64,000 nt of DNA from Closterium sp. NIES-65 (lineage: Eukaryota; Streptophyta; Zygnematophyceae; Desmidiales; Closteriaceae). The notes below the pieces were generated by a model. It ran no database searches and had not been told where the DNA came from. It saw nothing but the letters and a program-made list of their open reading frames with translations. The stretch is from assembly GCA_948144175.1 (NCBI GenBank), contig CANXME010000243.1:1-64000 (forward strand), given 5' to 3'. Position 1 is the first letter of the stretch. Each line of letters opens with the position of its first letter. Of the stretch, positions 27,313 through 54,740 are shown in pieces. The position numbers and the translations under genes are program-made.

Positions 27313-30300
27313 TTACTTGTGGTAGAGGAAGACAAAGCCAATGACAAAGAACGCTATCATCTGGTGGTTGAAAGAAATATAAATTGGCACAAGAGGGAGG
27401 GACGGAAGAGCACGGTTAGCGAGAGCATATGGGGTAGAGATGAACAGAGTGGTGGTGGGGTAAAAGTGGTGGAGGATGATCAAGGGAGGAATGACAAGCA
27501 TGGTAAAGGAAAATGGAGCATTGCTGCACTGCAGCATGAATGGGAGGGAGGGAAAAGTGCGCAAAAAGGACAGGTGGGGAGTTGAAGGTTGTCGGATATT
27601 AGATGGAGAGATGAGCCACATGATGGAGATAGGAGACCATAACGTTGAGAAGGTTGAGGAAAGGCACACTGTAAAGAAGGTTGAGGCATAACGTGGATAA
27701 TGGGGGGCATAACATGGATTAAGGGAGGCATAGCGTGGACTAAGGGAGGCATAATGTGGATCAAGGGAGGCAGCATAGCGTGGAGAAGGTGGAGGCATAG
27801 TAAGGGAAGGCGGCCAGGATGAAGCGAGGCATCGAATGGATAGATAGCAGCAGCATATCATGGAGAAAAAGGGCACACCGTGGACGGGCAGAGGCAGCAT
27901 ACCATGGAGAAGGTGGAGGCGTAGTAGGGGAAGGCCGCCGGGATGAAGCGCTCAAACTCATCGTGGCGGAAGGGGCGCACGGGGATCTGTGGAAGAGGGT
28001 AGTGGGGTGTAGTGAGGTGTGGTGAGGTGAGGAGGAGTTAGAAGCAGCAATGACTGGGTTTGAGGGAAATGGATGGGGTTGGGCGACTAGGAGCAGCGAC
28101 TAACTGCGAGGCAAAATGATTCCGGTATGTGTCGGCGAGGGGCGAGAAAGAAACAGCGAGGAGGAAAGAGAGGGGAACCCAGGGGAAGCAGGAAATACTT
28201 GTGGCCTGGCATGAAAGAGTGTGGCAGGCAGGCACCAGGGACACGAGGAAGGTTGCTGCTCCACACCTGCTTTGCAAGCAAGGCCGTGGAGTGGCAAGGG
28301 AACAACCAGCCAGCTGCTTGCAAGCACTGCCCTGCTTTGCAAGGTAGATGGTGGAGTAGCCGAGAACAATCACCTGTGAGCAAGAAGACGCACCTGCTTG
28401 GCGAGCGAGATGGTGGAGTAGCCGAGAACAATCACCTGTGAGCAAGAAGACGCACCTGCTTGGCGAGCGAGATGGTGGAGTAGCCGAGAACAATCACCTG
28501 TGAGAAAGAAGACGCACCTGCTTGGCGAGCGAGATGGTGGAGTAGCCGAGAACAATCACCTGTGAGCAAGAAGACGCACCTGCTTGGCGAGCGAGATGGT
28601 GGAGTAGCCGAGAACAATCACCTGTGAGCAAGAAGACGCACCTGCTTGGCGAGCGAGATGGTGGAGTAGCCGAGAACAATCACCTGTGAGCAAGAAGACG
28701 CACCTGCTTGGCGAGCGAGATGGTGGAGTAGCCGAGAACAATCACCTGTGAGCAAGACGACGCACCTGCTTGGCGAGCGAGATGGTGGAGTAGCCAAGGC
28801 GCTTGTGCTCCACCTTGAACTGAAACACGCCGTACACATCCGGCACCTGGAAGGATGTGAAGAAGCGACCCTGGGGAGGAGGTGGTGGGAGGGCGGCGTA
28901 CAGGAGAGGGAGGAGGAGAGGAGACAAGGTTAATCTGGCAGACGCAGAAGGCGTGAGACAGCTTGGACGGGTTGAGAAGAGAGCGTGGAGGGGGAATTGT
29001 GTGAGGGGACTTTTGAGGCGCCTCAAAAGCAGACTCAGCCGGCGTGAGACAGCTTGGACGGGTTGAGAAGAGAGCGTGGAGGGGGAATGGTGTTGAGGCG
29101 AGGGGAGGGTGGGATGGGTAGACGGGCGAACGGGTGCCGGATGTAGAGGAGGAGAAAGGAAGGTGGGAGAGGGAAAACAAAGAGTGTGACTGAGCATGTG
29201 GTTGCACCTTGAAGATTGACAATTGCCCTCGTAGATGTGTGTCAACGTGTTTGGCGCTTCGGAGCGAGTGAGAAGGGACATGCACCTCACCTTGTCATCG
29301 TTGAAGGGACATGCACCTCACCTTGTCATCGTTGAAGGGACATGCACCTCACCTTGTCATCGTTGAAGGGACATGCACCTCACCTTGTCATCGTTGAAGG
29401 GACATGCACCTCACCTTGTCATCGTTGAAGGGACATGCACCTCACCTTGTCATCGTTGAAGGGACATGCACCTCACCTTGTCATCGTTGAAGGGACATGC
29501 ACCTCACCTTGTCATCGTTGAAGGGACATGCACCTCACCTTGTCATCGTTGAAGGGACATGCACCTCACCTTGTCATCGTTGAAGGGACATGCACCTCAC
29601 CTTGTCATCGTTGAAGGGACATGCACCTCACCTTGTCATCGTTGAAGGGACATGCACCTCACCTTGTCATCGTTGAAGGGACATGCACCTCACCTTGTCA
29701 TCGTTGAAGGGACATGCACCTCACCTTGTCATCGTTGAAGGGACATGCACCTCACCTTGTCATCGTTGAAGGGACATGCACCTCACCTTGTCATCGTTGA
29801 AGGGACATGCACCTCACCTTGTCATCGTTGAAGGGACATGCACCTCACCTTGTCATCGTTGAAGGGACATGCACCTCACCTTGTCATCGTTGAAGGGACA
29901 TGCACCTCACCTTGTCATCGTTGAAGGGACATGCACCTCACCTTGTCATCGTTGAAGGGACATGCACCTCACCTTGTCATCGTTGAAGGGACATGCACCT
30001 CACCTTGTCATCGTTGAAGGGACATGCACCTCACCTTGTCATCGTTGAAGGGACATGCACCTCACCTTGTCATCGTTGAAGGGACATGCACCTCACCTTG
30101 TCATCGTTGAAGGGACATGCACCTCACCTTGTCATCGTTGAAGGGACATGCACCTCACCTTGTCATCGTTGAAGGGACATGCACCTCACCTTGTCATCGT
30201 TGAAGGGACATGCACCTCACCTTGTCATCGTTGAAGGGACATGCACCTCACCTTGTCATCGTTGAAGGGACATGCACCTCACCTTGTCATCGTTGAAGGG

Positions 30301-33300
30301 ACATGCACCTCACCTTGTCATCGTTGAAGGGACATGCACCTCACCTTGTCATCGTTGAAGGGACATGCACCTCACCTTGTCATCGTTGAAGGGACATGCA
30401 CCTCACCTTGTCATCGTTGAAGGGACATGCACCTCACCTTGTCATTGTGCGAGAGCATCTCACTCACCTTGTCATCGTGCGAGAGTGTCTTGAGCACGTA
30501 GGGGCTCATCATGTAGAACTGCACTTGCACATCGTCGCCCTTGAATGGCACCCACTCGCTGCCCGCCCACTCATAGATGTCCACTGCGAACTCCTGCCAG
30601 CGGGGGCAGCGAGGGGGGGGGACGGGGAAAAAGAGCGGGGAAGAGGGGAGGAGAGCAGAGGAGCCAGCAAGCAGTCACCATGAGTGCCCCGTGCAAAATG
30701 GCGTTGAGGGGAGGAAAGGGGAAGAGGGGGAAAGGGGCGGGATGCAAGCAAGACAAAACAGCCACTGCCTGCAAGAATCCTGACGGGCATCGAGAAGGCA
30801 GGCAGGCGGGCAGGCAGGCGGGCAGGCACACAGCGCACTGATGCAGTGCAAGCGGGCACATGCGGGCACATGCAGGCACATGGCGGGTGCATACCAGGTG
30901 GTCAGAGACACGGTAGACTGCAGGCTCCGTGCTCTCCCCAGCCTTGTTGTGCCGCAGGTTCACAGCCTGAGAGGTGTGGGGTGGGGGGATGGAACGGAAG
31001 GAAGAGAGTGGTGAGCAGCGGTTCGGAAAGATTCACTGGGGAGCTGAGCAGTGGTGAGGACAGATGGGATGCTGAGGGAGTGTGGGATGGTGAGGGGAGC
31101 GTGGGATCGTGAGGGGAGTGTGGGATGGTGGGATGGTGAGTAAGTTCATCTGCTCTATCTTCTCACCTTAAGGTGCCCCCTTTCGTGGAAGGTCCACTTG
31201 GACAGCTCCGTGACAAACTGCTCATTGCCGGCCGGCGAGAGCCACTGGGAGGTCTTGGCGTTTTGTGAGGCCGGGTCGGCAGAGGTGGCAGACACGTCCA
31301 CCACTGCGCGGAAGAAACTGAGAGGGGGGAATAAGGAGGGGCGGAGGAAGGGGAGGGGAGAACGAGAGGAGGCGCAAGGGAAGGGGAGAGGAGGAACGAG
31401 GCAGAAGAGAAAGGGTTAGGGCGGGGTCGGCAGAGGTGGCAGAGCAGTCTACCACTGCGCAGAAGAAACTGAAGGAGTAAAAAAACTAGGGGCAAGAGAA
31501 GGGGAGGGGAGGAGGAGGGAGGGGGTTGGAAGGATAAGTGAGAAGCGAATAGTCGACACATGCTCTTGTAACCTGGCCCGAACTCCCCCTTCCCTCCCTC
31601 CCCTTCCCCCCTCCCCCCCGATCCCCCCCCCCCCCAATTTTCCTGACGAGACGTGCAATTCACATCTCCAATTCTCCGTCTCACTCCCCCCTCCCTCGTC
31701 CCCCTCTCACCCCCAATCCAGCACCCACGCACCTGTCTGTGAAGAGCGCGAGCGACCCGGAGATGAGGACGCGCGCGTTGTTGCGCGCCTGCATGGCCGC
31801 CACGAGCGAGACCGCCTTGCCCTGCAGCGCGGGGGGCTCCTTGAGAGCCGCTGCTGGGTCCGCCGCGTAGGCCGTGGGGGAGCCTGAGAGCACCGGCACC
31901 ACCTGATGGCGCATGGAGGGAGGGGGAAGGGACAGGGAGGGGGGACGAAGGGACAAGGAGAGGGGAAGGAGGGGGCGGAAGAGGGGGCGGGGGCGAGGGG
32001 GGTGGGGAGAAAGGGGGGGGGTTCCCCGTAAGAATTTCTCAAGAGATGAGGTGGAAGGACTGAGCGCAAGGACTGCGAGCACCAGCAGCAGCTGGTGGCG
32101 TGATGGAGGAGGGTGAGGAGCTAGCGGAGAGGGGTAAGCAGCATATAAGCGATGGAGCGTGCTGTGCGTCTCACAGGTGTGATCGACAAGAGGCATGAAC
32201 GAGTACCATGCAAGGGGCACGGGGGGGGGGGAGCAGGGCGTGGGATAGCTGAAAGGATGTGTGGAGCGACGGAGGGCATACCAGCTCGGACGTGGGCGAG
32301 ACTGTCATGGCGATCCCCTGGAAGAGAATGGGGCCCTGTGGTGCAGCCATGCCGAGGGTGGGAATGCAGCGGAAGAAAGAACGGTGCAGAGTGAAGGTGG
32401 AGAGGTGGAGGAGAGAAACAAGGAGAGGAATGACAAGTAGAGCAAAACCAAATCCCGTTTGCACGCAAAAGAGACGGAGATGCCACCACAAGAATTTGGA
32501 ACGAACAAGCAGCCGGATACAAGCCACCTTTACACGGTTCCACTGGGATGGCAAGGGTATTCTAGCAAAGCATACCTTGATGGGGGAAGCGCCGAGGATG
32601 ACGGAAGAGTTGATGAGGTTGCTGCCGAGCACGAGCGTGTGGTCGTCCCTGCGCCCGCTCACCCGCGCGTACTGCTGGTGGTCGATCACCACGCCCTTGG
32701 GGTTCTGCAATCGCATCAGTCAATATCGCGGATGGAATTGGAAAAGTGAGTCACATCAACATATACCACGTCCCGTCGCCAACTGCACAGCACTCGCGCG
32801 AAAATTCGCGGATGGCGTGAGTGATGGCCGCGCGGCGCGTCAGCACATACCTCATCGAGGTCCACGCCGCATTCGAGTGCAATATCGCGGGATGGTGTCG
32901 GACAGAGATGTGAGAGGCGCGAGCGGCAGCAACACGTACCTCGTCGAGGTCCACGCCGCATTCGAGCGCGATATCGCGGATGGTGTCGGACGCGCCGCTG
33001 TCCGCCGCGAGGATGAGGTCGTGGCCCGAGTCCACGAAGTCGAGGATCGCCGCCACGTCCACCACGCCGCCAAACGCTAAGAGATGGGGAGCACGGGGTA
33101 GGTGGGGGGGGTGAGGGAATGAAGGACGAAAAGGCGAGGATGAGGTCGTGGCCCGACTTCACGAAGTCAAGGATCGCTGGCACGTCCACCACGCCGCCGA
33201 ATGCTGGGAAATGAGGGGGGCGGGGAACGTGGGAGCACGGGGAAGGTGGGGGAAGGAAGCAGCGTGTGCGGCAACGTGTGCGCCATGCGGTAGAGGATGA

Positions 33301-34732
33301 TAGCGACGTGGTAGAGGTACTAGTGAGTCGCATTGGAGCGGGATTTCATCATTCACACGCGAGATCGCAAGATGTACAGGAGACGTTGGCGCGAGGGCGA
33401 TAGCGGGGTCGTAGGGGTACTCGTTCACCCTTACTACACAACTTCATCAATCACAAGTGAGGACGCAAGACGTACACGAGAATTCGGGGTGGAGGATTAT
33501 GGCGGCGTCGTAGAGGTGCCAGCTCAGCTTATAGCGTGATTTTAAGAATGGACGTGCAAGCGCAAGACGTACCATGAGACTTTGAGGCCGAGGATGATAA
33601 CGGCATCGTAGAGGCGCTAATGAGTCACCTTATAACGCGGCATTAGAGAAAACACAAATAGAAAGTAACACGTACAAGAGACTTCGGGCGCGAGGATGAT
33701 GGCGGCGTCGTAGAGGTACTCGCCGTACTTCTGCAGCACGAGACTCGAATCCCTCGCCGCGCGCAAATCCAATTCGTACCCGCGATCTGCGGAACGGAAG
33801 ACCAGGACGTAGAGAGGGGAGAGGCGGGGAAAAAGGAAGAACGGCGAGAATCAAAGGAGGAGGTTCCAAATGAGACGCTGGCCGCGAGTGATGGGGACGT
33901 CAGCGGAAAGCTACAAGCTGAGGACACGAGATGGGATCATTGTGAATGCTGAATGCACGACGATGAGTCAGACATGGCGCATTAGTGGATATGTGACTGG
34001 CCGATAAGGATCGTATCGCAATGCGCGGCCAGATCTTGAAAGATGCCGAGCAGATTATGTGAACTATGAGTGTTGCTGATTCGGTCACATTTGCCAGTGT
34101 CGCCTGTTCAGTAAGCTATGTCAGTGTCGCAGATATAGGTATTGCGGAGTCGCCAATCACGTAGCTATGTCAGTGACTAGAACACATCAAACTATTTCTA
34201 TGTCAGTGACTAGAACACATCAAACTAAATCTATGTCAGTGTCGGCGACTCAGGAAGTAGTTTCAGCGTCGCCAATTTGTTGGTCAGCTATGTTCAGCCT
34301 CGCATGCTACGGGACTGTCGCCGTACGCTTGCCCTGTGATAAAGGTGGGAACTTAACGACTCTCGATCTGCAAAACATCCTGCTGTAATGCGGAAACCCA
34401 AGATCTAGCGCAATCCGTACTGTTAGGTGACTGCGAACGTCTCAATTCCAACAGGAAAATTCTCATTGACTGGGAGCTCTTCAATAAAACGGTCCTCTGG
34501 AGCATCTGTGAATCTCCTGCAAATCGCGAACGACCTCCATGATTCGTGGCTATCTGCGACGTTCTTAATTACCTGCGAGGTTCTTAAAGAAGATAGAGTA
34601 GGAGTCCTTATTCTTGAGGTCGTCTAGCAGCACGAGGATGCGCTGATCCGTCGGTCGCTCCTCCGAGAATGCGACGCATCCCACCACCGAGATCGCGATC
34701 AAAGCCAGCAGGCCAAGCACGCGCGGCGCCAT
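27313..34732 (-). CDS. OST48: OST48/DDOST, 48-kDa subunit of ER oligosaccharyltransferase (12 exons)
   Basis: This is a non-catalytic, conserved subunit of the ER oligosaccharyltransferase, which moves the dolichol-linked glycan to Asn in N-X-S/T. Exons in coding order: 34573-34732, 33676-33786, 32940-33076, 32576-32704, 32282-32335, 31733-31902, 31167-31317, 30895-30966, 30468-30593, 28766-28870, 27903-27986, 27313-27360. All introns are GT-AG and phases agree, giving 1,347 nt (448 codons), normal for the family. The ATG at 34732 opens a hydrophobic signal peptide ending near C-V-A-F-S. Family landmarks are [75 protein letters not shown] and [16 protein letters not shown]-terminal membrane helix ends in L-Y-H-K. 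The family is certain by motif; expression was not tested. Confidence 0.96.
27683..27900. repeat. Degenerate copies of the OST48 exon-11 3' end and donor in intron 11
   Basis: On the minus strand, 27770-27830 is a clear copy of the end of exon 11 ([14 protein letters not shown]). Further degenerate units follow at 27683-27780 and 27840-27900, each carrying a CCATGGTATG-like motif matching the exon-11 donor (ATG|GTATGC). All copies lie downstream of the real donor at 27903. Confidence 0.8.
28255..28765. repeat. 62-bp minisatellite built from the OST48 exon-10 3' end plus donor (intron 10)
   Basis: Seven near-perfect 62-bp units (about 28340-28765), preceded by a more degenerate one near 28260, extend from the exon-10/intron-10 junction. 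On the minus strand each contains the last 30 nt of exon 10 (coding [10 protein letters not shown]), its donor CAG|GTGCGT and an acceptor-like tract TTCTTGCTCACAG. Between that AG and the next donor lie 42 nt, 14 codons with no stop (V-I-V-L then the ten above). A unit could therefore be included in frame as a micro-exon. Confidence 0.93.
28950..29092. repeat. ~92-bp direct repeat in OST48 intron 9
   Basis: A roughly 45-bp segment (GTGAGACAGCTTGGACGGG onward) at 28953-28998 is repeated at about 29045-29090. It is non-coding and lies within intron 9. Confidence 0.8.
29271..30467. repeat. 31-bp minisatellite, about 38 copies, built on the OST48 exon-9 donor (intron 9)
   Basis: Essentially identical 31-bp units (GAAGGGACATGCACC then TCACCTTGTCATCGTT) fill most of intron 9. 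On the minus strand each unit reads ACGATGACAAG|GTGAGG, which is the end of exon 9 (D-D-K) and its donor. The unit next to the gene (30430-30467) also contains the preceding exon bases with TCTCGCAC, showing the array grew out of the junction at 30468. I saw almost no variation among units, so the array is young. It is unrelated in sequence to the 26-kb satellite despite the equal period. Confidence 0.96.
31426..31472. repeat. Copy of the OST48 exon-7 start in intron 6
   Basis: On the minus strand this matches the start of exon 7 ([13 protein letters not shown]), including the preceding CAGTTTCTTC acceptor context. It lies upstream of the real exon 7 (31167-31317), inside intron 6. Confidence 0.85.
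32755..32910. repeat. Copies of the OST48 exon-3 3' end and donor in intron 3
   Basis: The segment at about 32838-32905 repeats the end of exon 3 (E-C-G-V-D-L-D-E) with a donor GATGAG|GTATGTG, just downstream of the true donor at 32940. A weaker copy of the same CGCGGATGG context lies at 32800-32830. Confidence 0.85.
33133..33207. repeat. Copy of the OST48 exon-3 start in intron 2
   Basis: On the minus strand it reads [20 protein letters not shown], a diverged copy of the exon-3 start. An AG precedes it (CCCAG|CATTCGG). It lies upstream of the real acceptor at 33077. Confidence 0.88.
33270..33625. repeat. Four degenerate copies of the OST48 exon-2 3' end plus donor in intron 2
   Basis: Copies at about 33275-33325, 33365-33420, 33470-33520 and 33560-33615, spaced close to 100 bp, resemble 33670-33720. 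On the minus strand they contain versions of CTCTACGACGCCGCCATCAT and the donor-side GTACGT. Divergence increases compared with the other arrays, so this is an older event. Confidence 0.8.
34160..34240. repeat. ~35-bp direct repeats in OST48 intron 1
   Basis: The motif CTATGTCAGTGACTAGAACA occurs twice in tandem, with partial CTATGTCAGTGTCG copies at about 34120 and 34232. It is non-coding and lies inside intron 1 (33787-34572), which is otherwise unremarkable. Confidence 0.75.
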
Positions 34733-35187
34733 CGCTACCGCAACCACGTTACGAAGCGATCAAGAGGTTAAATATGCGCAGCACGCGTCGGACGAGAGTG
34801 TACCAGAGGTAAGGTGCGGACGACCTAGATCCTAATCTCCGACCTACAAAGCCAGCGATTCCCACCAATGTGAATCCTGAATGGAGAAATGGTGCGCTGG
34901 TGGTGGTGTGATCCCAAGGTTGGCCCACACAGAGAAGTCCCCGTCACAGCTAGGGTGACAATGATGAGGATACAATCGGATAATACACCAACACCAGCAC
35001 TCATTGTCAATACAAGGTAACATCATGTAAACTGATTACTAAATGACTTTCATCTTGTCCACAGAGCACCAGTGCAGTGTGACAGGCTATGGGCTTAAAC
35101 ATAATTTTTTATGGAAACAGGTATTCGTGTGTTCCAGAAAACCTGGATAGAGGCCGGCGTATGCGAGGCTCATTCAAAAAAAGCTCG
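34733..35187. other. Intergenic region between OST48 start and POT1 stop
   Basis: Both flanking genes are on the minus strand, so this 455-bp stretch should hold the OST48 promoter and 5' UTR plus the POT1 3' UTR. I see no TATA element I would defend and no other gene. Confidence 0.5.
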
Positions 35188-41425: not shown

Positions 41426-44400
41426 ATGGCGGCTATTCGCGCGAGCGCGTCCCTGCCGCTGGCGCCGTCTCAGTCTCTTCGCGGAGAGCCCGAGGTTGCA
41501 CAGGCGAGCGTTCAGAGCCCACGGAGCAGTCACAATATCCTTCCTCGCCATGATGGCTTGAGGCGTGTGTTACCAGCAACGAGTAACACTGCAGCTTTTC
41601 GCAGAGCTGGATGCAGAGTCAATCGAATTTGTAAGGCGGATGTAACTCTAGGTGGCATTCGGTCCAGATTAAGCGGCAACGCGAGTGATAAGGATGGAGT
41701 TAAATTAGCGGATTCCGCCATGGCTGCAACTTTGGTAGAGGAGAAAGAGTCGACGCGGCTTTTAAGAGCCGCAGAAACCGCGCTTGGATTAAATTCCAGT
41801 GTAGAGTCTACAGACGACGACGATGACTATGACGATGAGACGGATATGGAGGACGCGCAGGGCAATGAAAGGGAATCGCAATCGAAATCTCGCCAGCGGT
41901 TACCATCGCTGGCGGAAAGATTAGGGGACGATCGTGACGTCAGCAGGTGGTTGGCGGAAGTGGAGGAGGCGGATACTTTGGCGGAGCTGCTGCTGGGGAA
42001 GCTGGCAGCGTTGCGCGGGGAGGCGGGCGGAGCGGCGGCACTCGCCGCGGCGGAGGCAGCAGCGGCGGAAGCTGCTTCCGCCGCTGCGGCAAAGGCGGAG
42101 GCGGAAGCGGTGGCGGCGGCAGCAGCAGCAGCCGCCGCCGCGGAAGAGAAGGCAGGCGGGGGATGGTTCAGCGGGTTGGGGAGTCTGTTGGGGGGTGAGA
42201 AGGAAAAGAAGGCGGAAACGGCGAGGGGAAATGCGGAGAGAGCGCAAGGTCAGCGGAGATCGGCGGAGGCGCAAGGGCAAGGGGGAGCGACAGGTGCTGG
42301 CAGAGCGCAGGGCGCGGCGTTGGGCCAACGACCGGGGGTGGGAGGCGCAGGCGCAGGGGCGGGGAATGCGGGGAAGGCGGAGAGATTTACGCGGCGTGAC
42401 GTGGCATGGCTGATGGAGGGGAGCCTGGCGGCGGGCAACGTGGCACTCAGCTATTCGCTGCTGAATGCGTGCAAGACGTCCGCTTTGGCGCTCAATGCGG
42501 GCGCGCCTGGGCAAGGTGCGGCAGTATGTTAGGGGATGGTAGATTAGTACAAGGAAATGACGGTACGATCAGCATACGGAACCGGTTGGGATTGACTGTG
42601 GTGCTGAGATTAACACATGTTTCTGCATCCTCATCTCCCCCTCGCTCCCCCCACTATCCCCTTCCCTCGTGGGCCCCTCTCTCATCTTCCCTCTGCCGCC
42701 GCCCCTTCCAGCGCGTGCGCGCGTGTGGCCCGCGGTGGGCGTGCGCCTATACGCGGCGATGGTGAGGGGGCTGGCGGCGCTGCTGCGAGTGGCGGACGCC
42801 GTGGCGCTGGTGGGGGAGGTGCAGCGGCGAGGCGTGCCCGAGGGGGACCGAGAGGTGAGCGGAGGAGGGAAGTGGGGAGTGAGGTGGGGGAAGGGGAAAA
42901 GGGGAAGGGAAATGCAGTAAGGGGGGAAAAGGGGAAGGGAAATGCAGTAAGGGGGGAAAAGGGGGGAGCAACAGCTGAGTTGCGGTGGCGCTGGTGAGGG
43001 ACGTGCAGAGGAGGGGTGTGCCCGATTGGGACAGAGGGGATGTGAAGTGAGTGAGGGAACAGAGCCAGGGAGCGGTAGTGGCTTGTGTGGTGCACTTGAA
43101 CGTCACATTGGATGAATTGTGTGCTTTCATCCCTTCAATGTATATTCTCAGATGTCGATGGGCTACCCTATGTGCTGCAAAGCCTTCACTTTCATGTGGT
43201 GCATGAACAAATAAATCAACAGCCACGTCAAGTGGTTTGTGCATTTGCGTCCTTGTGTTCCTGGTGCAGGTGTCCTTTGGAGTGACAGTGGACTGCCCCA
43301 CGTGCCGCAAAGCCTTTTCTGTGGTGCAGCCGCAGCAAGGCCGGCAGGTGAGCCCATGTGGCTTCTGACAAGAGAGAAATAAATGGAGGGTGTTTCCTAG
43401 ACAACGTTCCCCCTTGACTCTCTCTGCTGCAACCCCCATGCTTCGTGCCTCCTCCCCGGCCTCCTGCCTAACCCCTGCTGTTTCTACGCCCCTGCTTCTC
43501 TTACGGCCCTGCCCCTGTTAACCACACACTTACTCCTGATAATTCATGCTCTTGCTTGTAACACTGCCCATGCCCCTGCCCTGCCCCTCAATCCCCATGT
43601 GCTATCGTTCCTACGGTCTCAGGTGGTGGGGTGTGCGGGGTGCAAGTACGAGTACGAGCTGGTGTCAGGGGACCTCATCTCCTGCGACTCTGAATCCCTC
43701 ATGTGAGTGCTTCCTACACGTGTGGATGCTGTATTCTCGCCTCGTCCCTGGGCACACTAGTACGAGTAATGTCTCGAGCCGAGTTTTACTCGCCTCGTCC
43801 CTGGGCACACTCGTATGAGTAATGTCACGAGCCAAGTTTAGCTCGGCCGAGCTTTTCACGGAAAACTCAAGCTCGCGACTCGTCTCTTATCACGAGCTTT
43901 TTAAAAGCTCGGACGAGCGCGAGAAAAGCTCGGCTTGTTGCCCTGTGCTGTGCTCTTGACGAGTCCTTCCTCCCTCAGTTCCTCCCTCCCTCAGTTCCTC
44001 CCTCAGTTCCTCCCTCCCTCAGTTCCTCCCTCAGTTCCTCCCTCAGTTCCTCCCTCCCTCAGTTCCTCCTTCAGTTCCTCCCGCAGTTCCTCCCTCAGTT
44101 CCTCCCTCAGTTCCTCCCTCAGTTCCTCCCTCCCTCAGTTCCTCCCTCCCTCAGTTCCTCCCTCAGTCCCTCCCTCAGTCCCTCCCTCAGTTCCTCCCTC
44201 CCTCAGTTCCTCCCTCAGTTCCTCCCTCAGTTCCTCCCTCAGTTCCTCCCTCCCTCAGTTCCTCCCTCAGTTCCTCCCTCCCTCAGTTCCTCCCTCAGTC
44301 CCTCCCTCAGTCCCTCCCTCAGTTCCTCCCTCCCTCAGTTCCTCCCTCAGTTCCTCCCTCAGTTCCTCCCTCAGTTCCTCCCTCCCTCAGTTCCTCCTTC

Positions 44401-47400
44401 AGTTCCTCCCGCAGTTCCTCCCTCAGCGCCTCAGAGGCTGGGCTCAGCGGCTGAGTGGATGCACTGTGCTTGGCGGGTCTCCTCTGCCTGTGCTGGTTAG
44501 AGTCAATGTGAGGGTTATTGCTTGTGGGGGTGAGGGGAGAGGCCTCGTCAGGGCCCAGCGATTGCTGCTGAGGTGATGGCGAGAGTTCAGAGTGGAGAGG
44601 CGATCAGTTTCGAGTCGGCCCTGCTTGTGCTAGTGCGAAGGTGAGAGTTGTTGCTAGTGCGGGTGCAAGTGAAGGTGAGAGTTGTTGCTAGTGCGGGTGC
44701 AGGTGAAGGGACACAGCCTGAGGGTGCAAGTGAAGGGACACAGACTGAGGGTGCAAGTGAAGGGACACAGACTGAGGGTGCAAGTGAAGGGACACAGACT
44801 GAGGGTGCAAGTGAAGGGACACAGACTGAGGGTGCAAGTGAAGGGACACAGACTGAGGGTGCAAGTGAAGGGACACAGACTGAGGGTGCAAGTGAAGGGA
44901 CACAGACTGAGGGTGGGTGGCTAGAGTGCAGAGTGGAGAGGCCATCAGCTTTGAGTGGATGCCCCGTGCCTCGGGTTGCCCTTGCCTGTGCTTGTTAGAG
45001 TCAAGGTGAGAAGGGCAGGGGGGGGCTTAGAGTCAAGCTATATGCATAACGTAGATTCATGAAGTGCAAGTATGAGTACGAGCTGGTGTCAGGGGACCTC
45101 ATCTCCTGCGACTCTGAGTCCCTCATGTGAGTGTTATAAAATTCATGTGGTGCGTGAATGTGCACAGCGGTGCACAGTGTGGTGCTCAAGACTCGTTCGT
45201 TTCCCTCTGCCTCCCATCCCTCCACCCCATCACCAGCGACTCTGCCCCCATCTTGGACAAAGTCCTTCGCCTCGTGCGCATCAAACGGGGAGACCCACCA
45301 GCAGCGGTGCACAGTGTGGTGCTCAAGGCCCCTCTCTTCTTCCCCTGCCTCCCGTCCCTCCACCTCTCCATGCACTCCCAACCCCCCCCCACCAGCGACT
45401 CAGCCCCCATCTTGGACAAAGTCATTCGTTTTGTGCGCATTAAACGGGGTGACCCACCAGTTGCAGTGCACAGTGTGGTGCTCAAGGCACCAGATGGCAC
45501 ATCGCAGATAATCACCTTCGCCACTGTCACCCCCTCAGTGCCCGCTCCATTTCACACTCTCCATTCTCTCCCTTTACCCTTGTTCCTTCACCCTCTTCAC
45601 TCCCCCCTCTCACCAGCGACTCTACCCCGACACTAGACAAGGTGCAAAGTGTGGTGCTCAAGGCTCCTTCGTTTTCCTCTGCCTCCAATCCCTCCACCCA
45701 CCATCAGTGACTCTGCCCCCATACTAGACAAGGTGCTCCGCTTTGTGCGCATGAAACGGGGTGACCCACCAGTGGCAGTGCACAGCGTGGTACTGAAAGC
45801 CCCTGACGGCACGTCGCAGATCAACACCTTTGCCACCGTCACCCCCTCCGTGCCTGCTCAATCCGGGGAGCGAATCACCATCGCCTGCGCTGCCCCCTCC
45901 TTCTCCTCCTCCCTCGCCTCCTCCCTCTCCTCCTCCCTCCCCTCTTCCTCGTCCGCTTCTCGAAAATCCTCCGCTTCTAAGCGGAAAATAGCGGGGGTAT
46001 TTCCGGCGCCGGCGAATAGAACCCCGGGGTGGAACCCGAGTGAGCCCATGGCGCTGACCAATCATGTGACGCGGCAGACGCTGGCGTTACTGCGCGCGCC
46101 GCCCAAGGCCACTAGAGACAGCGGCAGCCTGTCGCTACCGCCCTGGGTGCTGCCTCTAGGCGGCGCACTGGTGGCGGCGAACGTGGTGGGGGCGGCAGCA
46201 GTGAGCATGGGGATAATGGAGCCAAACGCGATCACAGATGGGACGATGGGGAGTGTGGTGGGGTGGGTGGCTGCTGGTGGAGCAGCAACAGGCGGAGCGT
46301 ACAACTTTCTGCTCCTGCCGAAGCTAAGAGAGGTGTGACAGTTTTTCTGTAGACGTACATTTTTTTCTACAAGCTAATTCCAACTTAACTGGGGTGGGTG
46401 CTGCAGCTGGGGGGGGCTACAACTTTGTGCTTCTGCCAAAGCTAAGAGAGGTAGGGCTCCAGCAGATGGCAAGGCACTGTGGCAGCAGCTGTGCTGCTGT
46501 AGCATTCCTGGTGATTTTTGAGTTGACTCAAAAATCACGATCATACGCTGCTCCACCCGCTCATACGCTGCTCCGCCCGCTCATACGCTTCCCCGCCCGC
46601 TCATACACTGCCCCGCCCGCTCATACGCTGCACCGCCCGCTCATACGCTGCACCGCCCGCTCATACGCTGCACCGCCCGCTCATGCGCTGCACCGCCCGC
46701 TCATACGCTGCACCACCCGCTCATACGCTGCACCGCCCGCTGTATTACGCTGCACCGCCCGCTCATACGCTGCACCGCCCGCTCATACGCTGCACCGCCC
46801 GCTCATACGCTGCACTGCCCGCTCATACGCTGCACCGCCCGCTGTATTACGCTGCACCGCCCGCTGTATTACGCTGGACCGCCCTGCATCTGTTCACCTC
46901 CCTGCACCTCGTGCTTACGCTGTGTCTTCTCTCCCCAGTTGGCGCATGCACTATCGAGCTGTTGGCGCATGCACTATCGAGCTGTCGGCGCATGCACTAT
47001 TGAGCTGTTGGCGCATGCACTATCGAGCTGTTGGCGCATGCACTATCGAGCTGTCGGCGCATGCACTATTGAGCTGTTGGCGCATGCACTATCGAGCTGT
47101 TGGCGCATGCACTATCGAGCTGTTGCCGCATGCACTATCGAGCTGTCAGCGCATGCACTATCGAGCTGTCGGCGCATGCACTATCAAGCTGTCGGCGCAT
47201 GCACTATCGAGCTCATACATTCTATTCGTCTTGCCCTGTCCCCTCTCCCCCTGTACCTCTATCTCTCGTTATACCTCTTGCTCTCTCCCCAGCTGCCAGG
47301 CAGTGTGGTGGATGGCATGGCAGTGCGGCAGCAGCTGTTGGAGCAGCATGCAGCGTTGAGACAGAGGCTAGAGGCGCTCTCTGCTGCTGCTTCTGAGGAG

Positions 47401-50400
47401 GTGAGTGAGCAGAGGAGGTGAGTGAGCAGAGGAGGTGAGTGAGCAGAGGAGGTGAGTGAGCAAGGGAGGTGAGTGAGCAGAGGAGGTGAGTGAGCAGAGG
47501 AGGTGAGTGAGCAGAGGAGGTGAGTGAGCAGAGGAGGTGAGTGAGAAGAGGAGGTGAGTGAGCAGAGGAGGTGAGTGAGCAGAGGAGGTGAGTGAGCAGA
47601 GGAGGTGAGTGAGCAGAGGAGGTGAGTGAGCAGAGGAGGTGAGTGAGCAGAGGAGGTGAGTGAGCAGAGGAGGTGAGTCTGTCCGCCCTTCCTCTGCGGC
47701 TACTGTATGCATGCCATCCCTTGTTGCTGGAGCATCATGAAATGAAACGTTCAGACAGAGGCTAGAGGTACTCTCTGCTGCTGCAGCTGAGGAGGTGAGT
47801 GAGTGAGAAAAGGAGGTGAGTCTGTCCTTCCTTCCTCTGCTGCTCCTGTATACGTGCCATCCATTGCAGCAGCAGCATGCAGCGTTGTGACAGCTGGGGA
47901 GGTGAGGATCCACCTGCTTTTGAGAATTCACAAACCCACCTGAAGTCACTCAGATCGCCCTCCACTCACGCTTGATTAGAGACATTCAATCAGCCTATTC
48001 CCTTAAAGCTGCTTTTGAGAATCCGAGTCCTGAAAGCAATAAAAGTGTTAGAGTAGTTGGAAGCTAGCAGCCTGTTGTTTCTGCATAACACACATGTGTG
48101 CATGTGTATGCATGCGTGTAACATTGTCTGCATGTGTGTCTGTGTGCACTACATGTTACCTCTTTCCCGTGTGTGTGCACGTATGTATGCCTGTATGCAT
48201 GCATGGGTGTGCACACCAGGTGCGCATGCTAGCGCGCATGTGTCAGCTGCAGAACAAGATGCAGTCCATCGGCCAGCCATCCACCTACAGGTGTGCCACG
48301 TCACCTACAGGTGGGCCACGTCACTTACAGGTGGGCCACGTCACCTATGTCTATCATTTCATCTCTACGCTGCCCCAGTCCTTACTTCTCCTGTCCCCCA
48401 AATATCCCGTGCCCTCTCGTCCTATGCAGGGCTGTGCGGGGGGGAGAGAGAGGAGGCGGGCAAAGGCCTGGACCAGCACTTCCCTCCTCATACCCCGCTC
48501 ATACCCCCCTCATACCCCGCTCATACCCCCCTCATGCTGCCCCACTGTCACCCCATGCTCCTCGACTCTACCCCTATGCAGTGCACAGTGGGAGAGAGTG
48601 GTGGCGGCGTGGACGTAAGGGGCTGGACCAGCACTTCCCCCCTCATATCCCCTTCTATACGCAACATGCTTCCACACTTTCCCCATGCTCCTCCTGCCCT
48701 TCATCCACACTGTTCCTATGCACGCATGGCATGGCATGGCATGGCAGTGCGCGGTGGGAGCGAGTGGTGGCGCCCAGCAAGGGGCTGGACCAGCAATTTG
48801 CATGGCCTTTCCATCCGCATACCCCCCTCATACCCCATCATGCTGCCCCATCCCCCATGCTTCTGCCCATCCTCCACGCTCCTCCTTATGCATGGCATTG
48901 CGCGGGGGGAGAGCGTGGTGGCGGCGTGCAAGGGGCTGCACCAGCACTTCCTCCCCTCATATCCCCTTCTATCCCCCTTATGATGCCCACTCCCATGCTC
49001 CTCCTGCCCTTCATTCACCATGTTCCTAAGCATGCATGGCATGGCAGTGCGCAGTGGGAGCGAGTGGTGGCAGCTCGCAAGGGGCTGGATTAACAATTTG
49101 CATGGCCTTCCCCCTCATACCCCGTTCTACCCCCACTACGCTGCGCCACTCCCTCCTGTCCCCCATGCTCCTCCACGCTCTTCCTATGCGTGCATGGCAG
49201 TGCGCGGTGGGAGAGGGTGGTGGCAGCTCGCAAGGGGCTGGACCAGCGGCTGCTGGCGCGAATCAACCTCGTGGACAGCTACGCCAAGGTAAGCTGAGTT
49301 GCTTCTGACCACGAAAATAAAAGAATCGGTCACAAATCAACCTTTGTAACAGCCATGCCTGCTTGCTGCCACGCCCTTCCTGCCAGATGCTGCCAGATGC
49401 AGAGATGAAGGTGATGCCAGAGTCTCAGCAGATGGATTTCCAATAATCAAAACCCGGAACTCTCGGGCCAGAATGGACATGCTTTATGAACCAGAACGGC
49501 ACACTTTTCCCTGCCCTGCTTTTTGTGTTCTCCACCCACTCACACCCTGCCACTCCACCATGCCCCTCTGCCCTATCCCTTTGTCTGCAGGTGCTGTCAC
49601 TGATCGAGATGGATGCAGACGTGCCAATGGCACAGGCAGCCGGGACTAGACGGGGTATGCTAGATCAGAGTAACTTCCACTCCTTCCTATTGTGCCCTCC
49701 ACCCTGCCCTCCACCCTGCCCTCCCCCCTGCCCTGCCCTTCTGACCGCAGGTGCTATCAATGATAGAGATAGAGGTGGAGATGGATGCAGACGTGCCAAT
49801 GGCACAGGCAGCCGGGACTAGACGGGGTATGCTAGATCAGAGTAACTTCCACTCCTTCCTATTGTGCCCTCCACCCCCCTCCACCCTGCCCTCCACCCTG
49901 CCCTCCACCCTGCCCTCCCCCCTGCCCTGCCCTTCTGACCGCAGGTGCTATCAATGATAGAGATAGAGGTGGAGATGGATGCAGACGTGCCCACGGCAGA
50001 GGCAGCAGGGGCTGCGGTGAGTCCTTCTCCCCTCGGTCTGTTGTTTTTTCTTCTTCTGCCCTTCCTGTTTCTCTCTGCAGCCCTTAGTGCATCCCTTACT
50101 GACCTCCGTGTGTGTGTATGTGCCATGCTGTGTACCATGCTGCCATGCTGTGTGCCATGCTGTGTGCCATGCTGTGTGCCATGCTGTGTGCCATGCTGTG
50201 TGCCATGCTGTGTGCCATGCTGTGTGCCATGCTGTGTGCCATGCTGTGTGCCATTCTGTGTGCCATGCTGTGTGCCATGCTGTGTGCCATTCTGTGTGCC
50301 ATGCTGTGTGCCATGCTGTGAGCCGTGGTACTGTGCTTTGTGTCTGAGAGCAGGCGAGCATAGCGGACCAGATCGAGCGGCTGATGGAGGTGGAGAGCTT

Positions 50401-51557
50401 GCAGAAGGTGAGGCACAGCGCAGGACTAATTGCTGGCAGGCGGTGTGGGGAGTGGGAGATGCAGGGACATAGTGCTGTGAGGTGGTCAAAGTGCGGGTGA
50501 GATCGAGTGGCTGATGGAGAGCTTGCAGAAGTTGAAAGTGGAGGCTTCGCGAGGTAAGTGATGGGTGAGTGGGTGTGACCTGTGATGGCATCCAGCCGCT
50601 GTACGGGCAGCTGAAAGGTGAGCCTTGAGGCTACATCAGCTGAAAGGTGAGCCTTGAGGCTACATCAGCTGAAAGGTGAGCCTTGAGGCTACATCAGCTG
50701 AAAGGTGAGCCTTGAGGCTACATCAGCTGAAAGGTGAGCCTTGAGGCTACATCAGTGAGCGTCGCTCGCGACTGTTTCCCTGTGTCCCAACCCCCTCTTC
50801 CTCCCCCTCCATCCCCACCACCAGGAGTGGAAGCAACAGGCGGAGGTGAACGATGAATTGGGGTGCTTCCCTTCTTGCTGCTTCCCTTCTTGCTGCTTCC
50901 CTTCTTGCTGCTTCCCTTCTTGCTGCTTCCCTTCTTGCTGCTTCCCTTCTTGCTGCTTCCCTTCTTGCTGCTTCCCTTCTTGCTGCTTCCCTTCTTGCTG
51001 CTTCCCTTCTTGCTGCTTCCCTTCTTGCTGCTTCCCTTCTTGCTGCTTCCCTTCTTGCTGCTTCCCTTCTTACTGCTTCCCTTCTTGCTGCTTCCCTTCT
51101 TACTGCTTCCCTTCTTACTGCTTCCCTTCTTACTGCTTCCCTTCTTACTTCTTCCCTTCTTACTGCTTCCCTTCTTACGGCTTCCCTTCTTACTGCTTCC
51201 CTTCTTACTGCTTCCCTTCTTACTGCTTCCCTTCTTACTGCTTCACTTCTTACTGCTTCCCTTCTTACTGCTTCCCTTCTTACTGTTTCCCTTCTTACTG
51301 CTTCCCTTCTTACTGCTTCCATGTGTCTAACCCTCCCTCTCTCCCCCCACCACCAGGCGGAGGTGAACGATGAGTTGGAGCGGCTGCTGAGAAGCGATGC
51401 ACTGTTTCCCTGTGTCCCTTCTCCCCCTCCCTTTCTCTCCTTCCACTCACCCCTCCACCACCAGGAGTGGAAGCAGCAGGCGGAGGTGAACGATCAGTTG
51501 GAGCGGCTGCTGAGGAGCGCGCCTGCTCTGCCCGACTCCGCCTCCTGGCAGAGCTGA
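41426..51557 (+). CDS. Conserved plant protein, probably plastid, with zinc ribbon and C-terminal coiled coil (11 exons)
   Basis: Exons: 41426-42515, 42712-42854, 43270-43347, 43623-43702, 45708-46332, 47293-47400, 48220-48290, 49201-49288, 49945-50016, 50354-50407, 51465-51557. All are GT-AG and all phases agree, giving 2,502 nt and 833 residues. The N-terminus (ATG 41426) is rich in Ser, Ala and Arg, like a transit peptide. Then come an acidic D/E run (41810-41860), an Ala-rich helix (42050-42150), a TPR/PPR-like helical pair (DVAWLMEGSLAAGNVALSY, with exon 2), and a zinc ribbon, CPTC in exon 3 and CAGC in exon 4. Exon 5 has VLRFVRMKRGDPP, a Ser-rich linker and two hydrophobic segments (46141-46210, 46255-46320). 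The C-terminal exons form a coiled coil with RMCQLQNKM, MIEIEVEMDADV and EWKQQAEVND. I recognise the layout from an uncharacterised plant family; the function is unknown. Confidence 0.9.
42870..42965. repeat. Short GGGGAAAAGGGGAAGGGAAA repeats in intron 2
   Basis: Purine-rich repeats of about 30 bp, in two to three copies, follow the exon-2 donor. They are non-coding. Confidence 0.75.
42979..43045. repeat. Copy of exon-2 3' end in intron 2 of the plastid-protein gene
   Basis: It repeats GTGGCGCTGGTG...GTGCAGAGG...GTGCCCGA from exon 2 (42800-42855) and ends in AAGTGAGTG, a donor-like end. It lies downstream of the real donor at 42854. Confidence 0.8.
43148..43202. repeat. Diverged copy of exon 3 upstream of exon 3
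   Basis: GTCGATGGGCTACCCTATGT then GCTGCAAAGCCTTCACTTTC and GTGGTGCATG resembles 43285-43330, the zinc-ribbon exon. It is too diverged to code for the ribbon: the first Cys of the pair is lost. Confidence 0.65.
43737..43930. repeat. Direct repeat plus GAGCTTTTTAAAAGCTC near-palindrome in intron 4
   Basis: The segment CTCGCCTCGTCCCTGGGCAC...ACGAGTAATGTC is present twice (43737-43780 and 43790-43835). It is followed by a region rich in AGCTCG/CGAGCT with a near-palindrome at 43892-43908. It might be a small transposon end; I cannot show termini. Confidence 0.5.
43965..44428. repeat. CCTCCCTCAGTT pyrimidine-rich minisatellite in intron 4
   Basis: Imperfect 12-bp and 16-bp units (CCTCCCTCAGTT and CCTCCCTCCCTCAGTT), about 37 in number. 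Each ends in CAG, so the array is a string of acceptor-like tracts. The long Ser/Pro ORF across it is a repeat artefact. Confidence 0.93.
44640..44920. repeat. 27-bp minisatellite in intron 4
   Basis: About nine units of GGGTGCAAGTGAAGGGACAC-AGACTGA. The multiple-of-three period leaves every frame open, so ORFs appear on both strands. It is intronic relative to the resolved gene. Confidence 0.95.
45065..45126 (+). other. Duplicate of exon 4 (exon 4b), phase-compatible
   Basis: It is a copy of exon 4 from T-G-C-A-A-G to the donor CTCAT|GTGAGT, preceded by AAG|TGC. It has 62 nt, starting in phase 0 and ending in phase 2 exactly like exon 4 (80 nt). It could therefore replace exon 4 without a frameshift. 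It would drop six codons (V-V-G-C-A-G), including the first Cys of the second zinc-binding pair. The acceptor context lacks a pyrimidine tract, so use may be rare. Confidence 0.7.
45160..45707. repeat. Three to four copies of the exon-5 start with acceptors, upstream of exon 5
   Basis: Partial copies lie at about 45160-45192 and 45625-45665. Better copies lie at 45237-45330 (S-A-P-I-L-D-K-V-L-R-L-V-R-I-K-R-G-D) and 45396-45545 (extending to F-A-T-V-T-P-S-V-P-A). Each good copy follows a pyrimidine tract and ACCAG. The true exon 5 starts at 45708; only that copy continues into the rest of the exon. Confidence 0.92.
46394..46455. repeat. Copy of the exon-5 3' end and donor in intron 5
   Basis: It encodes a variant of the end of exon 5 (Y-N-F-V-L-L-P-K-L-R-E) followed by AGAGAG|GTAGGG, just downstream of the true donor at 46332. 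Confidence 0.9.
46545..46875. repeat. 20-bp minisatellite in intron 5
   Basis: About 16 units of CGCTCATACGCTGCACCGCC; some carry CGCTGTATTACGCTGCACCG. It is non-coding. Confidence 0.94.
46935..47215. repeat. 23-bp minisatellite in intron 5
   Basis: About 12 units of TTGGCGCATGCACTATCGAG-CTG. Each contains the palindrome GCGCATGC-like core. It is preceded by CTCTCCCCAG, the same acceptor-like string found before exon 6. Confidence 0.94.
47395..47672. repeat. 18-bp minisatellite built on the exon-6 donor
   Basis: About 15 units of GAGGAGGTGAGTGAGCAG start exactly at the exon-6/intron-6 junction (GAGGAG|GTGAGT at 47400). Every unit is a complete consensus 5' splice site. Confidence 0.96.
47715..47900. 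repeat. Further copies of the exon-6 3' end in intron 6
   Basis: 47727-47797 repeats the exon-6 end (GACAGAGGCTAGAG...CTGAGGAG|GTGAGT). 47865-47905 repeats CAGCAGCATGCAGCGTTG then GGGGAGGTGAGG. Both retain donor-like ends and lie downstream of the 18-bp array. Confidence 0.85.
48085..48218. repeat. TG/CATG-rich simple sequence before exon 7
   Basis: Alternating GTGTGCATG/GTATGCATG sequence ends at the acceptor CACACCAG of exon 7 (48220). It is non-coding. Confidence 0.7.
48279..48350. repeat. 20-bp repeats of the exon-7 donor
   Basis: CACCTACAGGTGGGCCACGT-type units, three in tandem, start at the exon-7 junction (CTACAG|GTGTGCC at 48290). Each repeats a TACAG|GTGGGC donor. Confidence 0.88.
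48425..49200. repeat. Five copies of the exon-8 start with acceptor tracts, upstream of exon 8
   Basis: Copies at about 48431-48475, 48583-48640, 48747-48800, 48893-48950 and 49050-49100, spaced about 150 bp, contain GTGGGAG(A/C)GAGTGGTGGC and AAGGGGCTGGACCAGC. Most follow a pyrimidine tract and GCAG. The fourth has lost the AG and the fifth has an in-frame TAA after G-L-D. Only the last copy (49201-49288) carries a full exon and donor. Confidence 0.93.
49591..49830. repeat. Two complete-looking copies of exon 9 upstream of exon 9
   Basis: The copies at 49591-49655 and 49752-49826 follow CTGCAG/CCGCAG and encode I-E-M-D-A-D-V-P-M-A-Q-A-A-G. They end at a donor-like GGG|GTATGC rather than the GCG|GTGAGT of true exon 9 (49945-50016). 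Between them sit CCACCCTGCCCT pyrimidine repeats. Their ends are not in the phase needed for exon 10, so inclusion would shift the frame. Confidence 0.9.
50120..50330. repeat. 12-bp CCATGCTGTGTG minisatellite in intron 9
   Basis: About 17 units. The period is a multiple of three, so long Cys/Val/His ORFs appear on both strands; they are artefacts. Confidence 0.96.
50502..50540. repeat. Copy of the exon-10 3' end in intron 10
   Basis: GAGATCGAGTGGCTGATGGA then GAGCTTGCAGAAG repeats the exon-10 end (50372-50407), with nine bases missing and the donor GT changed to TT. It lies downstream of the real donor. Confidence 0.85.
50605..50757. repeat. 29-bp donor-containing repeat in intron 10
   Basis: Five units of CAGCTGAAAGGTGAGCCTTG-AGGCTACAT, each with a strong donor-like AAAG|GTGAGC. 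Upstream, GCATCCAG|CCGCTGTACGGGC could be an acceptor and a tiny exon. Inclusion would not keep the frame into exon 11. Confidence 0.93.
50810..50865. repeat. Copy of the exon-11 start (first of two)
   Basis: CACCACCAG|GAGTGGAAGCAACAGGCGGAG matches the true exon-11 acceptor and start at 51465, about 640 bp further on. It runs into the 15-bp array after about 45 nt. Confidence 0.9.
50866..51322. repeat. 15-bp CTTCCCTTCTTGCTG minisatellite in intron 10
   Basis: About 30 units. The first dozen are TTGCTG and later ones mostly TTACTG, giving a directional sequence gradient. It is a long pyrimidine tract between exon-11 copies. Leu/Phe/Cys-rich ORFs across it are artefacts. Confidence 0.96.
51340..51400. 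repeat. Copy of the exon-11 start (second)
   Basis: CACCACCAG|GCGGAGGTGAACGATGAG then TTGGAGCGGCTGCTGAGAAG lacks the first four codons of true exon 11 (E-W-K-Q) and then matches it closely. Confidence 0.9.
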
Positions 51558-54275: not shown

Positions 54276-54740
54276 AACAGGCTATTCCTCCACTTCTCTG
54301 AACCAGGCTGCTACTCCCCTTCAGGGTTTCGGGTTCTTCTCCCCTTCTCTGCAACAGGCGGCTGCTCTCCCCTTCAGGGTTTAGTTTAGAGGTTCCTCTC
54401 TCCCCGTCTCTGCACCAGGAGGCGGCTTCTCCCCTCTCTGCACCAGGGGCGGTTTAGGGGTTCTTGTCTGCAGGTGACATCTCCCCTTAACTGCTCCAGG
54501 CGGCTGCTTCCCTTAACTGCTCCAGGTGGCTGCTCCCCTTAACTGCTCTAGGCGGCTGCTCCACTTAACTGCTCCAGGCGGCTCCTCCCCTTAACTGCTC
54601 CAGGCGGCTGCTCCCCATAACTGCACCAGGCGGCTGCTCCCCTTAACTGCTCCAGGCGGCTGCTCCCCTTAACTGCTCCAGGCGGCTGCTCCCCTTAACT
54701 GCTCCAGGCGGCTGCTCCCCCTAACTGCATCAGGCGGCTG
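54276..54740. repeat. Diverged 26-bp CTCCAGGCGGCTGCTCCCCT repeats
   Basis: Degenerate relatives of the preceding minisatellite (CAGGCTGCT becoming CAGGCGGCT) lead into about ten 26-bp units of AACTGCTCCAGGCGGCTGCT-CCCCTT at 54480-54740. Confidence 0.88.

Follow-up and report, generated by a model that had tools for sequence, protein, structure and literature searches.

Copies of exon edges with their splice sites in the adjoining introns of Closterium genes

Tandem duplications of exon-intron boundaries that resemble minisatellites, involve either donors or acceptors, and often keep the AG or GT are described under the name of mirages in excerpts from two reports on amphioxus, where they are found in Adh, the globin genes BflGb6 and BflGb9, TnC, and PGBD5 (PMC3087553, PMC3902484). 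The same excerpts state that the copy number of mirages differs among haplotypes and that splicing is regular (PMC3087553, PMC3902484). Internal tandem repeats at human exon-intron boundaries gave 27 intron modifications in duplicated genes after manual checking, often with alternative transcripts, according to part of PMC2812944, and the human 6-16 minisatellite generates multiple splice donors in one gene (Turri 1995, as cited in part of PMC3618361). The Rogers model of intron gain by tandem duplication is discussed, in the portions available of both papers, for a potato RdRp gene in which the duplication spans an intron-exon boundary (PMC4974935) and for Drosophila (PMC2891723). Judged from excerpts, the tandem exon arrays of Tetrahymena LRR genes (PMC6564038) are a different phenomenon, and the dual-specific splice sites of polyubiquitin (PMC10809524) were rejected as a related system. 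The exon-edge copies that we describe in Closterium belong to a class already known from lancelet mirages and from human repeats at exon-intron boundaries; the initial annotation of this DNA knew no described name for such genome-wide intron growth, but that of mirages was in use (on the evidence of the excerpts of PMC3087553 and PMC3902484). As in both human cases, tandem repeats that cross a junction alter the structure of the intron or the choice of donor. What looks new is the scale, the lineage, and a spacing that is often about 105-195 bp. Exon-edge copying is not described in the excerpts of the Closterium genome paper, where introns of four strains average 485-554 bp (PMC10407611), and none of the matches listed, most of them from non-subscription literature, reported exon-edge copies as widespread in plants or algae.

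The window, meaning the whole stretch of 64,000 nucleotides that was analysed, is nuclear DNA of the desmid Closterium, a streptophyte alga, with Closterium sp. NIES-65 as its most likely source, and lies on contig C243 (120,809 bp) of the genome used in the profile searches (874,075,685 bp in 2400 contigs). Exact spliced models of three genes, OST48, POT1, and a plastid-protein gene (PLP), give 30 introns and 60 junctions in all (Table 1). The OST48 model is identical to the OST48 portion of P0137, a NIES-65 protein, while the PLP model includes NIES-64 protein P0123 exactly, with its first 98 residues taken from the window's own frame, and the POT1 model was matched to a composite protein built from window frames and the joins seen in P0138-P0142. 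The draft OST48 protein is 97% identical to a Naga37s-1 protein and 90% identical to a NIES-68 protein, and its PDB OST48 match has E=4.5e-100; a scan of viral contigs with the OST48 protein returned eight stretches that matched the pattern, none of them a relative. Pfam PF02765 was found in the POT1 proteins of NIES-68 and NIES-64. PLP is a streptophyte protein with moss, liverwort, and fern relatives at 43-47%, for which a Pfam search gave no match. About 460 bp (34732-35191) separate the end of POT1 from the start of OST48, which lies downstream on the same strand, and the joining of parts of these two genes in predicted proteins P0137-P0141 and P0001 is probably an annotation error. Outside the three genes, the left 26 kb of the window (1-25912) are taken up by one satellite array in which a 31-bp unit recurs about 845 times, and minisatellites are present at 52976-54322 (29 bp x46.7) and 59979-60297 (23 bp x13.9). 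A 266-bp unit repeated 6.8 times at 56966-58708, in which a donor-like GGTAAG was read by eye on the minus strand, looks like a series of tandem exon-plus-intron units; neither an ORF from this repeat nor six ORFs from 55-64 kb of the window had a Pfam match.

Scoring of 30-nt exon edges against 100 dinucleotide shuffles shows that 3' edges are copied in the downstream intron in 13 of 30 cases and in the upstream intron in one of 30, and that 5' edges are copied upstream in six of 30 cases and downstream in one of 30, which bears out the polarity first proposed for this locus. When mid-exon tiles were used as controls (at most 12 per exon and side), matches were obtained for 15/92 upstream and 6/98 downstream; 18 of these 21 matches fall in exons that have an edge copy on the same side, and the remaining three, with scores of 9-11, concern POT1 exon 9/10. 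Edges of up to 60 nt gave copies on the correct side in 12/30 (3') and 8/30 (5') cases and on the wrong side in 7/60, all of the latter in exons of 54-90 nt that an edge of this length mostly spans. Reverse complements of these edges (up to 60 nt) gave 0/120 matches, and introns of other genes, drawn at random twice per edge from among the three window genes only, gave 1/132, so that the edge copies are private to their own junction. Probes that span the junction detect copies at 22 of the 60 junctions (13 donors and nine acceptors), and both types of boundary are duplicated, as in mirages. By the same probes, 16 of the 30 introns hold copies, and the earlier statement that most introns do so stands for OST48 (7/11) and PLP (7/10) but not for POT1 (2/9). 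All of the individual junctions named at that time were recovered: donors 2, 3, 9, 10, and 11 and acceptors 2 and 6 of OST48, the intron 3 donor of POT1, and, in PLP, donors 2, 5, 6, and 10 and the acceptors before exons 3, 5, 8, 9, and 11, together with the PLP intron 7 donor, which is detected by TRF only and lies outside the 22 counted junctions. To these we add the PLP intron 4 donor, the POT1 intron 7 donor, the OST48 intron 5 acceptor, a partial PLP intron 5 acceptor, and a weak OST48 intron 6 donor. The presence of exon-edge copies with their splice sites in the adjoining introns is confirmed as a real observation.

Table 1. Gene models and exon-edge copies in the window (positions are those of the window)
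Feature	Position	Strand	Description
OST48	34732..27316	minus	12 exons, exact spliced model
POT1	40360..35191	minus	10 exons, exact spliced model; possible further first exon upstream, outside the model
PLP (plastid-protein gene)	41426..51554	plus	11 exons, exact spliced model
OST48 intron 2 donor side	33293..33614	minus	four degenerate exon 2 tail copies, 41-47 exon nt, period ~100
OST48 intron 2 acceptor side	33134..33254	minus	exon 3 head copy, 70 exon + 43 intron nt, AG kept, 96/113
OST48 intron 3 donor side	32754..32894	minus	two exon 3 tail copies, 60/73 and 45/60, GT kept
OST48 intron 5 acceptor side	32073..32134	minus	weak exon 6 head copy, 48/60, AG kept
OST48 intron 6 acceptor side	31420..31511	minus	exon 7 head copy, 73/92, AG kept
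OST48 intron 6 donor side	31596..31650	minus	weak, doubtful copy, 14 exon nt, 42/55, GT not kept, low-complexity
OST48 intron 9	29272..30478	minus	31-bp array x39 (TRF), takes in last 11 nt of exon 9 and donor
OST48 intron 10	28331..28795	minus	62-bp array x7.5 (TRF), takes in ~30 nt of exon 10 and donor
OST48 intron 11 donor side	27736..27826	minus	exon 11 tail copy, 48 exon nt, 71/90, GT lost
POT1 intron 3 donor side	39292..39418	minus	exon 3 tail copy, 90 exon nt, 102/123, GT kept
POT1 intron 7 donor side	37386..37449	minus	exon 7 tail copy, 30 exon nt, 45/56, GT lost
PLP intron 2 donor side	42947..43059	plus	exon 2 tail copy, 82/104, GT kept
PLP intron 2 acceptor side	43159..43203	plus	partial exon 3 head copy from 19 nt inside exon, 35/40
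PLP intron 4 donor side	45064..45159	plus	exon 4 tail copy, 63 exon nt, 1.4 kb away, 84/94, GT kept
PLP intron 4 acceptor side	45192..45660	plus	three exon 5 head copies; in two, differences mostly at codon position 3
PLP intron 5 donor side	46393..46452	plus	exon 5 tail copy, 48/59, GT kept
PLP intron 5 acceptor side	46465..46505	plus	partial exon 6 head copy from 18 nt inside exon, 33/39
PLP intron 6 array	47395..47678	plus	17-bp array x16.7 (TRF), exon 6 end and donor
PLP intron 6 donor side	47725..47821	plus	longer exon 6 tail copy, 65 exon nt, 79/88
PLP intron 7 donor	48282..48347	plus	20-bp array x3.3 across exon 7 donor (TRF)
PLP intron 7 acceptor side	48391..49089	plus	five exon 8 head copies, period ~150, AG kept in 3/5
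PLP intron 8 acceptor side	49549..49819	plus	two copies of nearly whole exon 9, 82/98 and 109/114, AG kept
PLP intron 10 donor side	50493..50577	plus	exon 10 copy, 64/76
PLP intron 10 acceptor side	50786..51396	plus	two exon 11 head copies, 15-bp array between

As in mirages, the repeat unit spans the exon-intron boundary, and exon and intron sequence occur together in the copies at 20 of the 22 junctions, the exceptions being the PLP intron 2 and intron 5 acceptors. The exon part is usually 30-90 nt long, and GT or AG is retained in most copies. These take two forms, namely short-unit arrays (31 bp x39, 62 bp x7.5, 17 bp x16.7, and 20 bp x3.3 by TRF) and single or few copies with a spacing of mostly 90-200 bp; arrays detected by TRF cross five junctions in the window. 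Units of mostly 100-220 bp, in addition to short arrays that reach about 501 units, distinguish Closterium from mirages as these appear in the excerpts cited above. OST48 intron 9 has 38 exact GACAAGGTGAGG sites, and in OST48 intron 2 the GT is kept in three of the donor-side copies, the fourth of which falls short of the junction, with differences spread about evenly over codon positions. Introns with copies have a median length of 627.5 nt, against 241.5 nt for those without (P=4e-4).

The suggestion that the pattern extends past these three genes is supported by exons taken from genome-wide Pfam searches (PF00118, PF00133, and PF00183), which yielded 47 exons in 19 other genes, two HSP90 loci (L055 and L060) being 99.3% copies of each other and counted as one gene rather than two. 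A copy is present on the correct side at 46 of 94 edges and on the wrong side at five of 94, with 1/188 for reverse-complement controls, where edges are the ends of profile matches rather than exact junctions and copy-like matches were excluded. For 3' edges the numbers are 25/47 downstream and 2/47 upstream, and for 5' edges 21/47 upstream and 3/47 downstream. The sample comprises 29 of 93 chaperonin, 11 of 52 tRNA-synthetase, and seven of 43 HSP90 matches, with one gene copy taken per pair; among the tRNA-synthetase exons, the one at L049 (357-408) is possibly a copy. Correct-side copies occur at 24/36 edges in CCT2, CCT5, and CCT7 and at 11/22 in the tRNA synthetases, both picked after the hit lists already showed some copies, and at 8/22 in single chaperonin loci and 3/14 in HSP90. 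The last two groups were not picked from hit lists, and their 11/36 edges provide a less biased figure, which is near the window's 22/60. Of the exon edges examined in Closterium, between a third and a half are duplicated, with the splice site, in the adjoining intron; mirages, by contrast, are described in the available excerpts from a few genes of one animal group. Many genes in the chaperonin, tRNA-synthetase, and HSP90 lists are present twice, in nearly identical form on separate contigs, which agrees with the copy-number variation that part of PMC10407611 reports for this Closterium species complex.

A second copy of the window locus is found on contig C1661, which is 94.5-98.3% identical over the four largest blocks, with smaller blocks also present. 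All three genes on C1661 are without stop, with GT/AG and reading frames open, and most codons that differ between the two loci are synonymous (29/35 in PLP exons 2-11, 8/12 in POT1, and 5/7 in OST48). The two loci agree throughout PLP exons 2-4 but have 35 mostly synonymous differences in exons 5-11; because of this contrast, a recombination breakpoint is likely to lie near PLP intron 4. Intron lengths are identical in nine of 30 cases and within 16 nt in eight more. Like that of mirages, the repeat number varies, here between two gene copies of one assembly. The 961-nt difference in OST48 intron 9 equals 31x31 (38 junction-spanning units in C243 vs six in C1661), and OST48 intron 10 is 186 nt (3x62) shorter in the second copy (seven vs four junction-spanning copies). 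PLP intron 6 is 819 nt in C243 and 9473 nt in C1661, its donor-spanning 17-bp array having 16.7 vs 501.4 units by TRF, although assembly could have affected the unit numbers of the longest arrays. Four interior arrays also differ by whole units (21, 30, 12, and 24 nt), and the length differences of POT1 intron 8 and PLP introns 4, 5, 7, 8, 9, and 10 were not traced to whole units. Copy numbers are equal in both loci for 12 of 16 long-period families, the PLP intron 5 and 8 acceptors and both sides of PLP intron 10 being those that differ, and most of these families therefore look older than the locus split. An assembly artefact is judged unlikely given this agreement between the two contigs, and also because P0121 of NIES-64, on a contig of 51,148 bp, holds translated PLP intron 4 copies. 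At window positions 45237, 45396, 50786, and 51318, intron copies hold residue states of the second gene's exons that are absent from the window's own exons (Ile in exon 5 and Glu in exon 11), and such copies may be called exon fossils.

We consider it likely that these copies arise by local tandem duplication and are filtered by selection that keeps the exon-proximal splice site. Tandem duplications would be frequent in this genome, ranging from minisatellite units of 10-60 bp up to duplications of about 100-220 bp, with those seen in coding sequence being in-frame and those within introns being tolerated; the period is divisible by three in all four separate exon-internal arrays (six TRF rows), vs 21 of 50 intronic TRF rows. 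A duplication across a donor would give two donors, and provided that the first is still used, the protein would be unchanged and the second exon edge would become intron. For a duplication across an acceptor, it is the last acceptor that would have to be used. Junction duplications could then persist as long as splicing uses the copy nearest the exon body, the new edge and its splice site being swallowed by the intron and afterwards mostly drifting, so that introns may lengthen and shorten by repeat units while the encoded protein stays the same. The proposal in the initial annotation that junction duplications survive when the copy stays intronic is supported, as is the statement that the frame is kept by the outermost junctions, which is seen in the gene models: of 38 scored inner junction choices, 27 cause a frameshift and, of the 11 that do not, 10 introduce a stop, no site being scored at the donors of OST48 introns 9 and 11, PLP intron 10, and POT1 intron 7. 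The outermost junctions are those used in predicted models P0122 and P0123 and in the OST48 portion of P0137, but not in P0121. As far as the sequence can tell, the exon-proximal site is presumably the one used in RNA, and drift together with purifying selection, not targeting, would set the pattern. For local tandem duplication the observed polarity is almost a tautology: whatever copy the exon does not take up can only lie in the intron, so that polarity alone reveals no junction-specific process.

A different reading, in which duplication is directed to exon edges through exon-phased nucleosomes or a fixed-length replication step, for instance, seems unlikely, although several observations are in its favour. 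Outside the window, correct-side copies are shifted by a median of 169.5 bp, with 30 of the 46 shifts in the range 106-194 bp. Of the 22 exons of the three CCT genes, 18 are involved in some local duplication, and only three intron-only pairs are unexplained; three other seemingly intronic pairs proved to be edges of exons missed by the family search. Among long-period window families, 13 of 15 are at junctions, vs 10.0 expected for ancestral introns of 240 nt (P=0.07; P=0.001 for 400 nt). The geometric test on all families argues against a need for targeting. Starting from 22 junction families, including the PLP intron 7 donor and excluding the weak OST48 intron 6 donor, we dropped six (four without a measured shift and two with shifts >400 nt) and set the remaining 16 beside 26 interior families merged by hand from the TRF table. 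The 16 of 42 that span a junction compare with expectations of 15.7 and 13.8 (P=0.24) for ancestral introns of 200 and 240 nt, and of 9.4 (P=0.006) for 400 nt. If ancestral introns measured 200-240 nt, an assumed length that is near the copy-free median, the window numbers need no junction targeting, and the special junction-anchored rule proposed earlier finds no support. Moreover, the geometry formula has a 150-nt unit in a 240-nt intron span a junction about three-quarters of the time, and exon-derived copies should be recognisable for longer because one side is conserved. The fraction of scanning windows with duplicated sequence, at 0.39-0.41 at donors or the exon edges beside them, exceeds that in nearby intron (0.23-0.26 at 20-120 nt), as targeting would have it; the fraction is 0.24 at acceptors and 0.63 beyond 120 nt into introns, and such densities cannot settle the matter of anchoring because deep introns consist largely of copies. 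A bolder version, in which most intron growth here comes from junction-preferring duplications of about 150 bp set by a physical length ruler of nucleosome or replication-intermediate size, with decoys beside a third to a half of splice sites and a strict rule that the site nearest the exon body wins, strikes us as doubtful but conceivable.

Codon positions were compared at 25 of the 78 junctions of the window and CCT genes, those having a copy above the cut-off. Copies and exons differ by 9.4, 4.1, and 20.9% at positions 1, 2, and 3, and by 18.0% in the intron parts. The 44 changes at position 1 compare with 41.9 expected if the copy alone drifts, the 97 at position 3 with 81.7 expected if exon and copy both drift, and the 19 at position 2 with 42.7 expected if the copy alone drifts; positions 1 and 3 fit a drifting copy beside a constrained exon, and drift does not account for the deficit at position 2. 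The differences are 7.6, 6.3, and 22.0% in 67 copies from outside the window, a contrast steeper than the expected twofold. That many copies are or were alternative exons, or decoy sites that regulate splicing, would accommodate the position 2 deficit, and also PLP intron 4, where two copies differ from exon 5 like coding sequence (2:1:23 and 5:2:18 by codon position) and have no indel in the exon part, with some states common to the exon of the second gene copy. In the deposited NIES-64 model P0121, these copies of PLP exon 5 are taken to be additional exons. This reading is nonetheless quite improbable for the copies in general: P0122 and P0123, which are models of the same gene, skip them, 37 of the 38 scored inner junctions cause a frameshift or introduce a stop, and the reading frame is disrupted by 66 of the 75 indels in the 67 outside copies (some indels being common to copies of one edge), which implies that the outside copies are not now kept as coding sequence. 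No heterogeneity in codon-position pattern was found over 18 junctions (P=0.78), so PLP intron 4 may simply lie at the far end of a general tendency and not be a case apart. Its pattern could result from exchange between gene copies that have diverged, or from use of the copies as exons in the past or at present. Finally, recent gain of the introns by the Rogers route (from a duplicated exonic AGGT segment) or as mobile introners is very improbable, for although exon pieces lie within introns, copies bear splice sites, and tandem duplication involving splice signals is common to Rogers-type gain, one side of the duplicated units is made up of intron sequence, an existing intron lengthens with copies inside it instead of a new one forming between exonic copies, and edge copies are not common to other genes (1/132 across the three window genes), unlike introners, which place a similar element at many unrelated introns.

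Intron lengthening is usually ascribed to transposons; the Closterium genome appears to lengthen its introns by copying exon edges, and some of the copies keep former exon states. As P0121 warns, gene models may take such copies as exons. If the pattern is genome-wide, Closterium would offer numerous natural experiments on how splicing chooses between nearly identical sites, among them a donor with about 500 tandem copies.
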